Below, piece by piece: positions 36,025 to 39,047 of a stretch of DNA of 64,000 nucleotides. A program made the position numbers and the translations under genes. The DNA comes from Devosia sp. SD17-2 (GTDB lineage Bacteria; Pseudomonadota; Alphaproteobacteria; Rhizobiales; Devosiaceae). The notes beneath the pieces are model-generated. The model was given only the letters and a program-made list of their open reading frames with translations. It ran no database searches and was not told the DNA's origin. Every line of letters begins with the position of its first letter. Position 1 is the first letter of the stretch. Location of the stretch: assembly GCF_029201565.1 (NCBI RefSeq), contig NZ_CP104002.1, positions 3,365,001 through 3,429,000 of the forward strand, written 5' to 3'.

Positions 36025-36651
36025 ATGGTAACGCAAGCCTTCGCCCAAGAGGCGGAAACGCCGACCGAGGACAATGTAGAAGCGCAAGGCGCCGACGCAG
36101 TCCATGCCGATCCGACGGCCGACACGCACGCCACCACCGAAGCGCATGGGGATGCCCATCATTCGGACGTGTTCCCGCCCTTCGATCCGGCTACATTTCC
36201 CAGCCAGTTGCTCTGGCTCGCTATTTCCTTTGCCGCGCTTTACCTGCTGATGAGCAAGATTGCCCTTCCCAAGATGGGCAGCATCATCGAAAAGCGCCAG
36301 GCCATGATCGAAGCCGATCTGGCCGCCGCCGACCAGGCTCGTCAGAAGACTGACGCCGCCATCGCCGCCTATGAGAAGGCACTTGCCGAGGCCAAGGCCA
36401 AGGCACAGGGCATCGCAAACGAGAGCCGTGAGGCGATCCAGGCTGATCTCGCTGCCAAGCGCGGCGCTGTCGAAGTCGATCTCGCCACCAAGGTCTCCAC
36501 TGCCGAAGCCCGCATTGCCGCGACCAAGGCTGAAGCTTTGACCCATGTCGACGAAATCGCCGCCGACACGGCTCAGGCGCTGGTTAGCCAGCTCGTCGGT
36601 GACGTCAATGCAGACAATGTCCGCGCTGCAGTCGCCAAGGCCAAGGAGTAA
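36025..36651 (+). CDS. atpG: ATP synthase F0 subunit b'
   Basis: 208-residue subunit b' of the peripheral stalk. One membrane helix (LLWLAISFAALYLLMSKIAL) is followed by a long charged helix (KRQAMIEADLAAADQARQKT onward). An N-terminal extension of about 55 residues rich in Asp, Glu and His (HADPTADTHATTEAHGDAHH) precedes the helix. It pairs with the next gene to form the b-b' dimer. The gene symbol atpG is sometimes used for b' in this order (also written atpF'). Confidence 0.92.
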   Translation: MVTQAFAQEAETPTEDNVEAQGADAVHADPTADTHATTEAHGDAHHSDVFPPFDPATFPSQLLWLAISFAALYLLMSKIALPKMGSIIEKRQAMIEADLAAADQARQKTDAAIAAYEKALAEAKAKAQGIANESREAIQADLAAKRGAVEVDLATKVSTAEARIAATKAEALTHVDEIAADTAQALVSQLVGDVNADNVRAAVAKAKE

Positions 36652-36656
36652 TCGCG

Positions 36657-37142
36657 ATGGATTTTCTCGATAACAGCTTCTACGCCCTTCTCGGCCTGGT
36701 TCTCTTCATCGGTCTCCTGATCTACGTCGGCGTACCGCGTGTCATCGGCACCATGCTCGACAAGAAGATCGCCCAGATCGAGACTGACATCTCCGAGGCC
36801 AAGCGCCTGCGTGAGGAAGCCGCCGCCCTGCTCGCCGAATATGAGCAGAAGCGCGTTGCTGCCGAGGCTGAAGCCGAAGACATCATCACTGCTGCCAAGG
36901 AAGAGGCTGTCCGCCTCACCGCCGAAGCACAGGCTTCCCTGGCAGACCTCGTCGCCCGCCGCACCAAGTCGGTGGAAGACAAGATCGCCCAGGCCGAAGC
37001 TCAGGCCATCGCTGAAGTGCGTGCCCGCTCCGCCGACCTCGCCGTCGAAGCAGCCCGCACCGTGCTGAGCAATGAAATGAACGCCAAGGGCGGTCAGATC
37101 ATCGACAAGGCCATCGCCGACGTCGGCAATCGCCTCAACTGA
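36657..37142 (+). CDS. atpF: ATP synthase F0 subunit b
   Basis: 161-residue subunit b. The N-terminal membrane helix (FYALLGLVLFIGLLIYVGVP) is followed by a long alpha-helical stalk (IAQIETDISEAKRLREEAAALLAEYEQKR). It starts 5 nt after the b' stop codon and ends the operon at a strong terminator. Role: holds the F1 sector against the rotor. Confidence 0.95.
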   Translation: MDFLDNSFYALLGLVLFIGLLIYVGVPRVIGTMLDKKIAQIETDISEAKRLREEAAALLAEYEQKRVAAEAEAEDIITAAKEEAVRLTAEAQASLADLVARRTKSVEDKIAQAEAQAIAEVRARSADLAVEAARTVLSNEMNAKGGQIIDKAIADVGNRLN

Positions 37143-37165
37143 GATCTTGCACAGTTTTGAATTTG

Positions 37166-37194
37166 AAGGCGGGCAGCAATGCCCGCCTTTTTTG
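37166..37194 (+). terminator. Rho-independent terminator of the atp operon
   Basis: A 10-bp stem, AAGGCGGGCA (37166-37175) with TGCCCGCCTT (37180-37189), has a GCAA tetraloop. The T-run continues to 37193. It begins 23 nt after the atpF stop codon. The DNA from here to the IS110 left end (37195-37322) shows no gene. Confidence 0.92.
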
Positions 37195-37313
37195 TTGGCT
37201 TGGAGCCTGCCGCCCGCATGCACGTCCCCCCTGGCCTGCGGACACGCCTCTCCCTCCCCGCGAATTCATATCCGCCTTACGCCCACAGACACCGCCCCAT
37301 CCCCTCCATCGTC

Positions 37314-37322
37314 ATTGCCCGG
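37314..37322. repeat. Left half of the REP-like palindrome split by the IS110 element
   Basis: ATTGCCCGG (37314-37322) is the left arm; the right arm CCGGGCAAT lies at 38469-38477 on the other side of the element. Joining them across CTCGT rebuilds a perfect 9-bp palindrome with a 5-nt loop, similar in design to the intact palindrome at 38498-38520. Confidence 0.85.
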
Positions 37323-37344
37323 CTTGTGTGGAGGATCTGTGCTT

Positions 37345-37508
37345 TAGTGGTGGCATCAGCCGGGTTGCGCATCCCGGCTGATGCAGTCAGGAGGCCGTTT
37401 TGTCCGGCTGGTTTGTCACAGCCGAGGACGAGCAAGGCCCTGTCTGCTCCCTTTGACCCCGAACGGTTGATCGGGCTGTTGCCCGCACCACAAGCCTGGG
37501 AGCAAGGT
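37345..37508 (+). ncRNA. Predicted IS110 bridge RNA
   Basis: Structure: a 12-bp 5' hairpin GCATCAGCCGGG/CCCGGCTGATGC (37353-37364 with 37373-37384); a target loop bounded by GGCC/GGCC (37393-37396, 37436-37439); a donor loop bounded by TGCTCCC/GGGAGCA (37445-37451, 37498-37504) with an inner stem CGGGC/GCCCG. Guides: 37400-37409 copies the left target 37315-37324 with one C-to-T (still G-U paired); 37426-37432 is the reverse complement of the right target CTCGTCC; 37463-37469 copies the left donor ACGGTTG; 37489-37494 is the reverse complement of the right donor CTTGTG. Order and sidedness match the known IS621 bridge RNA. Exact RNA ends are not known. Confidence 0.85.
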
Positions 37509-37509
37509 C

Positions 37510-38451
37510 ATGATACACGACACCCTCTTCGTTGGCATCGACGTTTCCAAGACGCATCTGGACGTTCATACCCATCCCGCTGGCAAATCCTGGCGTTGCA
37601 GCACTGGACCGGAGGCGCTCGCCGAGCTGACGCAGCGCCTGGCCAGACTGGGGCCGTTGGCCATCGGGCTCGAAGCCTCGGGAGGCTATGAAGCCCGCGT
37701 GGCCGAGAGCCTGCATGCCGCTGGCCTTGAAGTGCATGTTCTAGCCCCGGCGCGGATCCGCAGTTACGCGCGGGGTATCGGCCAATTGGCCAAAACCGAC
37801 AAGATCGATGCCGCTCTGATCGCGCGTTATCTGCAGGCCGTGCGCGCCAGCTTGACCCCTTATGTGTCTGATCCGATCCGACAAAGGCTGAGCGCGTTCA
37901 CAGCCCATCGGCGGCGGATCGTTGCGGAAAAGAGCGGCCTTGTCAGTCAGCTCGATACCATCGACGAGCCGCTTGTGCGCAGCCTGATCGAGGAGCGTCT
38001 GGCGGCCATCGCCCTGGAGATCAAACGCATCGAAGCGGCCATCACTGCCCTTCTCGCCGACAATCGCCAGCTCCAGCAGCGCCAGGCGCGGCTGCGGCAG
38101 GTGACCGGCGTCGGTCCGGTTCTGGCGATCGCCTTACTGGCCGACATGCCCGAGCTCGGCAAGGTCTCCGCCAAGGTGGCCGCAGCACTCATCGGCGTTG
38201 CCCCTTATGCCCGCCAATCGGGCGCATCGGATCGCAACGGCCGCTGTCTTGGCGGACGAAAACATCTGCGCGATATCGCCTACATGGCCGTGCTCAGCGC
38301 CATCAAGGTGAAAGACCCCGTTCTCGGCGACTTCTATCAAAGACTGCGCCTGCGCGGAAAACCCTTCAAACTCGCCATGATCGCAACGGTGAGAAAACTC
38401 ATCACAATCCTCAACGCCATCGCCCGACAGGAACCGGCATTCCAACAGTGA
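37510..38451 (+). CDS. IS110-family RNA-guided recombinase (transposase)
   Basis: 313-residue IS110 recombinase. The RuvC-like DEDD residues are D11 (GIDVSKTHLDV), E55 (GLEASGGY), and D97/D100 (KTDKIDAALIARY). The C-terminal transposase_20 domain contains VTGVGPVLAIALLADMPELG and the candidate nucleophile Ser237 (YARQSGASDRNG). A coiled-coil linker lies about 135-195. It is full length and shows no frameshift, so it may be active. Its ribosome site GGGAG (37498-37502) is part of the donor-loop stem of the bridge RNA. Confidence 0.95.
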   Translation: MIHDTLFVGIDVSKTHLDVHTHPAGKSWRCSTGPEALAELTQRLARLGPLAIGLEASGGYEARVAESLHAAGLEVHVLAPARIRSYARGIGQLAKTDKIDAALIARYLQAVRASLTPYVSDPIRQRLSAFTAHRRRIVAEKSGLVSQLDTIDEPLVRSLIEERLAAIALEIKRIEAAITALLADNRQLQQRQARLRQVTGVGPVLAIALLADMPELGKVSAKVAAALIGVAPYARQSGASDRNGRCLGGRKHLRDIAYMAVLSAIKVKDPVLGDFYQRLRLRGKPFKLAMIATVRKLITILNAIARQEPAFQQ

Positions 38452-38468
38452 TGTCCACGGTTGCTCGT

Positions 38469-38520
38469 CCGGGCAATCCATCTGGCCGAAACACTGGATC
38501 ACCGGGACAAGCCCGGTGAT
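38469..38520. repeat. Right arm of the split REP-like palindrome plus an intact palindrome
   Basis: CCGGGCAAT (38469-38477) completes the palindrome interrupted by the IS110 element. Twenty bases on, ATCACCGGG (38498-38506) pairs perfectly with CCCGGTGAT (38512-38520) around ACAAG. The two palindromes form a REP doublet (BIME-like), so the original site was a pair of hairpins. Confidence 0.8.
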
Positions 38521-38576
38521 GACGACCGAACAACCTTCGGTGCACACACCGAGGCCTATTTTCCCCATACCCCTGC

Positions 38577-38740
38577 CCTCCGCTCCATCGTCCCCTCGCC
38601 CCTCAGGGGAGAGGGTCAGGGTGAGGGGTGAGGACCTCTCAGCGGCTCACCGCACCTAAACCCCTGCCCACCACCATCTCAGCTCCATCGCCTCCCTCCC
38701 CCTTGTGGGGAGGGAATGAGGGTGGGGGTTCTGCAGTCAC
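38577..38740. repeat. G/C-tract palindromic repeats upstream of the gcv operon
   Basis: Two units: one with CCCCTCGCCCCTCAGGGG and then GAGGGT/GGTGAGGGG tracts (38592-38632), another with CCTCCC...GGGGAGGG and GAGGGTGGGGG (38691-38730). They resemble the families at 5889 and 10098 in composition but are not clear copies. They fill most of the stretch between the IS110 element and the glycine riboswitch; no gene was seen there. Confidence 0.55.
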
Positions 38741-38814
38741 GCCTCCGCCCCCACCCCACGGGAACAATCGCAAACCCCAATTGACGCCATTAAATTTCTC
38801 CACCATGGTGCCGG

Positions 38815-38990
38815 CGACTGCGGGAGAGATCGGCCTAGGCCGGCGCCGAAGGAGCAACCGCCCCGGAAACTCTCAGGCAACCGGACCGTAGTCAGGACAA
38901 CACTCTGGAAAGCAGGTCGCTTGCGGCCTCTCCGAAGGAGCAACCGGCGCTCAGCCGGGAAATCTCTCAGGGCAAGGACAGAGGGGGCAC
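38815..38990 (+). promoter_or_regulatory. Tandem glycine riboswitch
   Basis: Two glycine aptamers in series. Aptamer 1 (about 38815-38898) has GGGAGAG, then CCGAAGGAGCAACC and AAACTCTCAGGCAACCGGACCG. Aptamer 2 (about 38910-38988) has CTCTGGAAAG, CCGAAGGAGCAACC and AATCTCTCAGGGCAAGGACAGAG, with P1 formed by CTCTG/CAGAG. These are the core motifs of glycine riboswitches. Placement directly before gcvT-H-PA-PB is as expected: it switches on glycine cleavage when glycine is high. Confidence 0.93.
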
Positions 38991-38995
38991 GCATT

Positions 38996-39011
38996 TCCGC
39001 CAAATGGCGGA
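38996..39011 (+). promoter_or_regulatory. Hairpin in the riboswitch expression platform
   Basis: TCCGCC (38996-39001) pairs with GGCGGA (39006-39011) around AAAT. It lies between aptamer 2 and the gcvT start. A short T-rich tract (CTTTGTCG) follows, too weak to be a certain terminator, so control might be at translation or by premature termination. Confidence 0.5.
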
Positions 39012-39047
39012 GCTTTGTCGTGTCGCCTGCCCAACCAGAGAGCGCCC

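Follow-up and report, generated by a model that had tools for sequence, protein, structure and literature searches.

An IS110-type insertion sequence of Devosia with a predicted bridge RNA that reads REP-like palindromes

Introduction

Devosia sp. SD17-2 carries an IS110-type insertion sequence in the window, the 64,000-nucleotide stretch of DNA analysed here. Upstream of its recombinase gene, an earlier note made from the letters of the stretch had described a bridge RNA whose four guide segments match the element's ends and its insertion site. The locus raises the question of whether this reading holds and whether it accounts for the places where copies of the element are found. The ends, the core, the scarless sites, the guides, the fold, the site choice and the reprogramming in relatives can all be followed in the sequences, and they indicate that the 1141-bp element is almost certainly complete, recently mobile and moving by bridge-RNA-guided recombination. 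The mechanism itself is not new, having been described in 2024; the element is a new, unusually clear example of bridge-RNA guidance.

The element, its ends and its copies

The following features define the element and its site:

37323..38463, plus strand: whole insertion sequence, 1141 bp, with one CT core counted inside
37315..37324, plus strand: left target with core, the left half of an interrupted palindrome (letters checked; empty site in L166)
38464..38476, plus strand: core CT with right target and right palindrome arm (CTCGTCCGGGCAA); the guide reads 38464-38470
37323..37328, plus strand: right donor, made up of the core and the element's left end, CTTGTG
38457..38463, plus strand: left donor, the element's right end, ACGGTTG
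37510..38451, plus strand: IS110 DEDD recombinase, 313 aa

As in other IS110 elements, the upstream region is long, with 187 bp of non-coding DNA before the recombinase start codon and 12 bp after the stop codon. The genome holds 14 full copies and one shortened copy (15 in total), and exact searches for the ends return equal numbers, 15 left and 15 right. The full copies agree at every base but 38330, which is A in five, as in the window, and G in nine. The shortened copy (L015, G000:C1:4101340-4102250) lacks 232 bp from inside the recombinase gene, and its site carries the element in a second, same-species genome as well.

This second genome (G045) is a draft that lacks the element at 10 of the 15 sites, the left and right flanks abutting with a gap of 0 at all ten sites compared by script. 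These sites fix the element's ends independently of the guides, and all ten display the scarless insertion without target duplication that is typical of IS110 elements. An eleventh empty site, L013, was judged by eye from L145 and L296, and four of the 15 (L007, L008, L010 and L015) are occupied in both genomes. The draft contains 8 left and 9 right element ends, all at contig breaks, of which 5 left and 5 right are private to it, and 11 sites are occupied only in the window's genome. Since the copies of the draft are cut at contig ends, these counts compare sites and do not describe an element-free strain; since such elements excise without a scar, presence or absence cannot tell insertion from excision.

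The identification of the recombinase as an IS110 protein, made in the earlier note, is borne out by several lines of evidence. Pfam PF01548 and PF02371 (the DEDD RuvC-like domain and the Transposase_20 domain) score above their cut-offs, and NCBIfam NF033542, "IS110 family RNA-guided transposase", reaches 184 bits against a cut-off of 140. Among solved proteins, ISCro4 (PDB 9t56) is the best match with 88 bits, followed by IS621 with 81 bits. The catalytic residues D11, E55, D97, D100 and S237 are in place, aligning with the IS621 active-site residues named in PMC11208158 (positions counted by hand).

The predicted bridge RNA

The upstream region contains the following features, all on the plus strand:

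37343..37348: -10-like TTTAGT; the TTGCTT at a distance of 17 nt exists only when the right and left ends join in a circle
37345..37508: predicted bridge RNA, with putative exact ends (supported by its fold and by the consensus fold of four relatives)
37353..37384: 5' hairpin of 12 bp (arms 37353-37364 and 37373-37384), with two double changes kept in relatives
37385..37445: target-binding loop (outer stem 37385-37391/37439-37445, inner hairpin 37406-37410/37419-37423; consensus fold)
37400..37409: left target guide with core (UUGUCCGGCU)
37426..37432: right target guide with core, GGACGAG
37446..37503: donor-binding loop (outer stem 37446-37451/37498-37503, inner hairpin 37472-37476/37481-37485; consensus fold)
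37463..37469: left donor guide, ACGGUUG
37489..37494: right donor guide with core, CACAAG

For all four guides, the earlier note's letters and coordinates are correct throughout, and the hairpin and two loops that it placed upstream of the recombinase are present. The DNA of the left target guide, TTGTCCGGCT, differs from the target at 37315-37324, TTGCCCGGCT, by a single C-to-T change, and the right target guide is the reverse complement of the right target CTCGTCC at 38464-38470. The left donor guide, as DNA, is identical to the element's right end, and the right donor guide is the reverse complement of its left end. The CT core is included in three of the four guides. That such a set of matches is unlikely to arise by chance, as had been argued, agrees with a shuffling test in which the element ends were kept constant. 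Taken in order, the four guides agree with their partners at 28 of 29 letters; when the 181-bp stretch was shuffled 5000 times with its dinucleotides preserved, the mean was 20.3 and the best shuffle reached 25. The test is generous to chance because it lets the guides take any spacing.

The stretch 37330-37510 folds better than 199 of 200 shuffles, and the predicted RNA better than all 200 (z -3.9). In the consensus fold of the four relatives, the 5' hairpin is followed by two loops, each with an outer stem, a left guide, an inner hairpin and a right guide. Double changes occur at only three stem pairs of this four-sequence fold, so that the support for the structure is mainly energetic and the covariation thin. 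An Rfam scan of 36500-39000 gave no hit over the RNA; a glycine riboswitch was the sole hit above its curated threshold, six others remaining below theirs. In the predicted fold of the free RNA, the left target guide is partly paired with the right target guide. The idea that the odd U of the left target guide maintains this pairing was dropped as a general rule, the pairing being seen in the element's own fold and absent from the consensus of the relatives.

When the two ends are joined, TTGCTT and TTTAGT, 17 nt apart, agree with 7 of the 12 letters of the sigma-70 consensus. Promoter scores for 14 elements were better at the circle junction than in the best integrated copy in 10 cases, tied in 4 and worse in none. 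A promoter across joined ends is known for IS621 (PMC11208160). Since the junction promoter contains the donor end TTG, these conserved letters may serve both as a guide match and as part of a -35 box.

Relation to IS621 and a proposed cycle

The papers on IS621 of Escherichia coli (PMC11208160, PMC11208158) describe a system that shares most of its layout with the Devosia element. Common to both are the recombinase domains and active site, the position of the RNA upstream of the gene, the succession of 5' hairpin, target loop and donor loop, the CT core, a REP target, a promoter across the joined ends and a wobble pair in a natural target; the four guides also agree with the published IS621 arrangement (PMC11208160) in strand sense, order and position, as had been claimed. 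The two differ in several respects. The proteins are only distantly related (81 bits). The right target guide has 7 nt here and 4 in IS621, longer ones having been reported for other IS110 elements (PMC11208160, PMC11208158), and several wobble positions occur at once here, compared with one in IS621. The left donor guide of IS621 pairs with the first core base through a C, a detail of IS621 that does not define the family. In the Devosia element and all four close relatives, this position is an A; many distant relatives (uncounted) have the C. ISCro4, the closest solved protein, was compared at the level of the protein.

By analogy with IS621, the recombinase would excise the element as a circle. 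The joining of the ends would then create the promoter described above, from which the bridge RNA would be transcribed. The second RNA loop is predicted to pair with the joined ends ACGGTTG|CTTGTG and the first with a REP-like palindrome of the form YYRCCCGG|CTYGTC, upon which the recombinase would join donor and target at the CT core, leaving no duplicated target. Expression of the RNA and catalysis are assumed here to proceed as in IS621.

Site choice in REP-like palindromes

All 15 copies lie in one class of REP-like palindromes of the form just given, and TTGCCCGGCTYGTCC is the predicted insertion target of the recombinase and its RNA. Within 3 mismatches, the window's genome has 109 such places, compared with 44 for a reversed control. 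As is characteristic of REPs, the palindromes are numerous and dispersed, and inverted pairs about 40-50 bp apart occur among them. That IS110 elements insert into REPs has long been known (PMC1525189).

The unused palindromes allow the guides to be compared with the choice of site. In the pool that differs from YYRCCCGGCTYGTCCGGGYRR by one mismatch at most, 31 places are guide-compatible, of which 15 are occupied, and 11 are incompatible, of which none is (p 0.003), compatible meaning Watson-Crick or wobble pairing throughout and incompatible meaning another core or an unpairable base. If every wobble is allowed, the whole genome has 33 empty guide-compatible places. Compatible places with a wobble at either of the two left positions adjacent to the core are not used (0 of 14), compared with 15 of 34 places without one (p 0.0017); for palindromes only, the figures are 0 of 5 and 15 of 30 (p 0.048). 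Wobbles at these two positions thus seem not to be accepted.

Two places deserve mention in their own right. At G045:C31:33720-33785 (L145, L296), two adjoining REPs form an inverted pair, and the element lies in one of them (L013) in one genome and in the neighbour in the other. The REP-like palindrome at G000:C1:1824496-1824516 (L294) contains no element; its right half, CTTGTGTGG, resembles the element's left end, and it is either a variant repeat or the trace of an old event.

Natural reprogramming in relatives

The earlier note had held that homologous copies whose loops do not track their flanking DNA would speak against the guide reading. In Devosia limi, Shinella and Novosphingobium the loops do track it, with some mismatches: the donor guides are letter-identical, and the target guides differ together with the flanks, which they largely match. 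The sample comprises 5 left and 6 right ends from D. limi, where the copies are cut at contig ends and the left ends derive from other contig ends than the right ends, and one copy each from the other two. The protein pieces of D. limi share 93% identity over residues 209-312 and 65-66% over residues 5-48.

The D. limi RNA has the left target guide UUUACGGGCU and the right guide GGUCAAG. All six right flanks start with CTTGACC, in agreement with the latter, and the five left flanks end with CCACGGG (2), CCGCGGG (2) or CCTCGGG (1). A true mismatch is present at left position 3, where the guide has A and the targets have A, G or T. In Shinella kummerowiae (76%), the guides CUUUCGGGCU and GGUCAAG stand beside the flanks CATCCTCGGG|CTCGACC, one right-side base being unable to pair with the guide. 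In a Novosphingobium bin (63%), the guides UAUCGGACU and GGUCAAG stand beside GGCCCGGA|CTTGATCC, with two mismatches at the far-left bases.

An alignment of the four sequences is variable at 0 of 13 donor-guide columns, 6 of 12 target-guide columns (core excluded) and 31 of the 136 remaining columns. Compared with all other columns, donor guides included (31 of 149), the target guides are the more variable (Fisher p 0.03). Judged from the aligned sequences, the target loops are reprogrammed naturally among close relatives and the donor loops stay constant. Natural reprogramming as such was described earlier for ISEc11 and ISXne4 (PMC11187229), related elements in which guide and target changed together as they do here. 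The same source assigns ISEc11 to the IS1111 group, whose RNAs are usually located downstream of the gene, whereas the Devosia element belongs to the IS110 group.

Further relatives yielded two separate observations. In genome G032, the left target guide of an IS110 relative ends with CA, yet the core at its four insertion sites (L199-L202) is CT. In genome G031, three right ends of a near relative (L290, L292 and L293) abut CTTGACCCGAGG and one (L291) abuts CTTGTCCCGGCAATCC. Perhaps two differently programmed versions are present in this genome; no part of the RNA was found in the stretches examined.

Wobble reading of the targets

Watson-Crick pairs alone account for none of the 15 sites. 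Left position 3 has U in the guide and C in the target at every site; the other differences, at left positions 1 and 2 and right positions 3 and 7, are all of the U:G or G:T type and lie away from the core. With G:U-type pairs in the right arm and at left positions distant from the core, the target guide enables one RNA to read several variants of the palindrome. One private left end of the second genome, TTGCCGGG (L334), has a true mismatch. A site matching by Watson-Crick pairs throughout was sought in both genomes and not found; two matches to TGTCCGGCTNGTC in each have T/G, not C, at the variable base.

Whether wobbles are favoured more generally was assessed in 38 elements (12 multi-copy and 26 single-copy), whose distinct guide/target cells comprise 400 identical pairs, 34 wobbles, 13 non-pairing transitions and 48 transversions. 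The excess of wobbles over non-pairing transitions has a one-sided binomial p of 0.0015, or 0.006 when normalised for guide letters (Fisher). The corresponding values are 0.0098 and 0.025 without the Devosia element, 0.047 and 0.23 for the other multi-copy elements alone, and 0.084 and 0.077 for the single-copy elements alone. These numbers suggest a modest lean towards wobble over non-pairing transitions, in a tally whose guide positions were chosen by identity and whose sequences were not freed of near-duplicates.

The tally was assembled as follows. It includes the 12 multi-copy groups, out of 18, that could be resolved; G005, G287, G123, G265, G137 and G219 were unreadable and lie outside it. 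Copies L203, L217, L218, L236, L269 and L270 were dropped (nested or cut, duplicate flank, other element, gapped, or too divergent), and L277 and L278 did not enter the analysis. Motif and spacing rules retained 25 of 92 single-copy loci, to which Novosphingobium, its ends having been misplaced by the script, was added by hand; reading distant single-copy relatives by score alone was abandoned, decoys reaching 26 and the best real locus 28. A partial tally without G032, G273, G113, G373, D. limi and Novosphingobium had 26 wobbles versus 9 non-pairing transitions.

One tentative explanation, which is possible rather than likely, is that the target loop is a degenerate code, with the wobble-capable letters U and G placed at those core-distal positions at which the host palindrome varies, so that one RNA reads a whole repeat family. 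The commonest natural target of IS621 is likewise read through an rG:dT pair (PMC11208160, PMC11208158). A literature search, with most subscription papers outside its reach, found nothing on wobble-reading IS110 guides beyond that pair.

Alternative explanations

The site could be picked by the recombinase protein or by the shape of the palindrome, the guide matches being a by-product of descent from a REP. All 15 sites are indeed palindromic, and the four non-palindromic compatible places without a core-adjacent wobble (L354, L361, L362 and L377) are empty, versus 15 of 30 palindromic ones occupied (p 0.08), a comparison of few places in which insertions into genes may have been lost. However, REP-like palindromes with another core or an unpairable base are left unused in this genome (0 of 11 within one mismatch), and the D. 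limi copies, which share the donor loop and encode a closely related protein, lie in another palindrome that agrees with their own target loop, which makes a choice without the guides very improbable. Still less probable is that the element is a dead relic with an RNA that no longer acts. One copy of 15 (L015) has suffered a deletion, but the 14 full copies differ by one base, and occupancy differs in both directions between the two same-species genomes, with 11 sites filled only in the one and 5 left and 5 right ends private to the other.

The meaning of the wobble pairs is less clear. They could be without significance, REP arms varying by transitions anyway and C-to-T in the guide being a common mutation, and this explanation has a substantial chance of being correct, if somewhat below even. 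It is favoured by the compensated transitions through which palindrome arms change, by the modest normalised tests (p 0.006 for all elements, otherwise 0.025, 0.23 and 0.08), by the 48 transversions, and by left position 3, where the target is invariant, so that the guide U is not explained by target variation. On the other hand, non-pairing transitions are the rarer class (13 versus 34) even though the two arms test opposite base changes, and the IS621 precedent of the rG:dT pair points the same way. Wobble reading may have been selected or may only be tolerated.

Significance, distribution and genomic setting

The element amounts to a natural experiment, in which one guide can be compared with 15 sites, with additional ends from the second genome, with unused places that can be counted, and with close relatives that have another guide and other sites. 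The candidate rule that wobbles are tolerated far from the core and not beside it is relevant to how specific bridge recombinases are, and the recombinase, being small and having a 7-nt right guide, is a candidate tool. Copies of ISPpu9, ISPpu10, ISPa11 and ISRm19, IS110 elements of other hosts and other palindromes, were likewise all found in REP palindromes (7 of 7, 7 of 7, 6 of 6 and 4 of 4) in a 2006 study (PMC1525189), the accessible part of which contains no guide reading.

A family-wide search matched 5 of 136 genomes, its own included, and no other genome among the 385 drawn in a class-wide search matched at E 1e-55. The element's DNA has no match in the plasmid collection; among viral contigs, two distant relatives entered only in the search for distant relatives. 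No paper on this Devosia element was found in a literature search that had most subscription papers outside its reach.

In the window, the element is inserted between putative ATP synthase b-subunit-like genes and a unit of glycine riboswitch and putative aminomethyltransferase-like gene. The glycine riboswitch aptamer lies at 38811-38898, scores 67 bits (cut-off 32) and is situated just upstream of the aminomethyltransferase-like frame at 39015.
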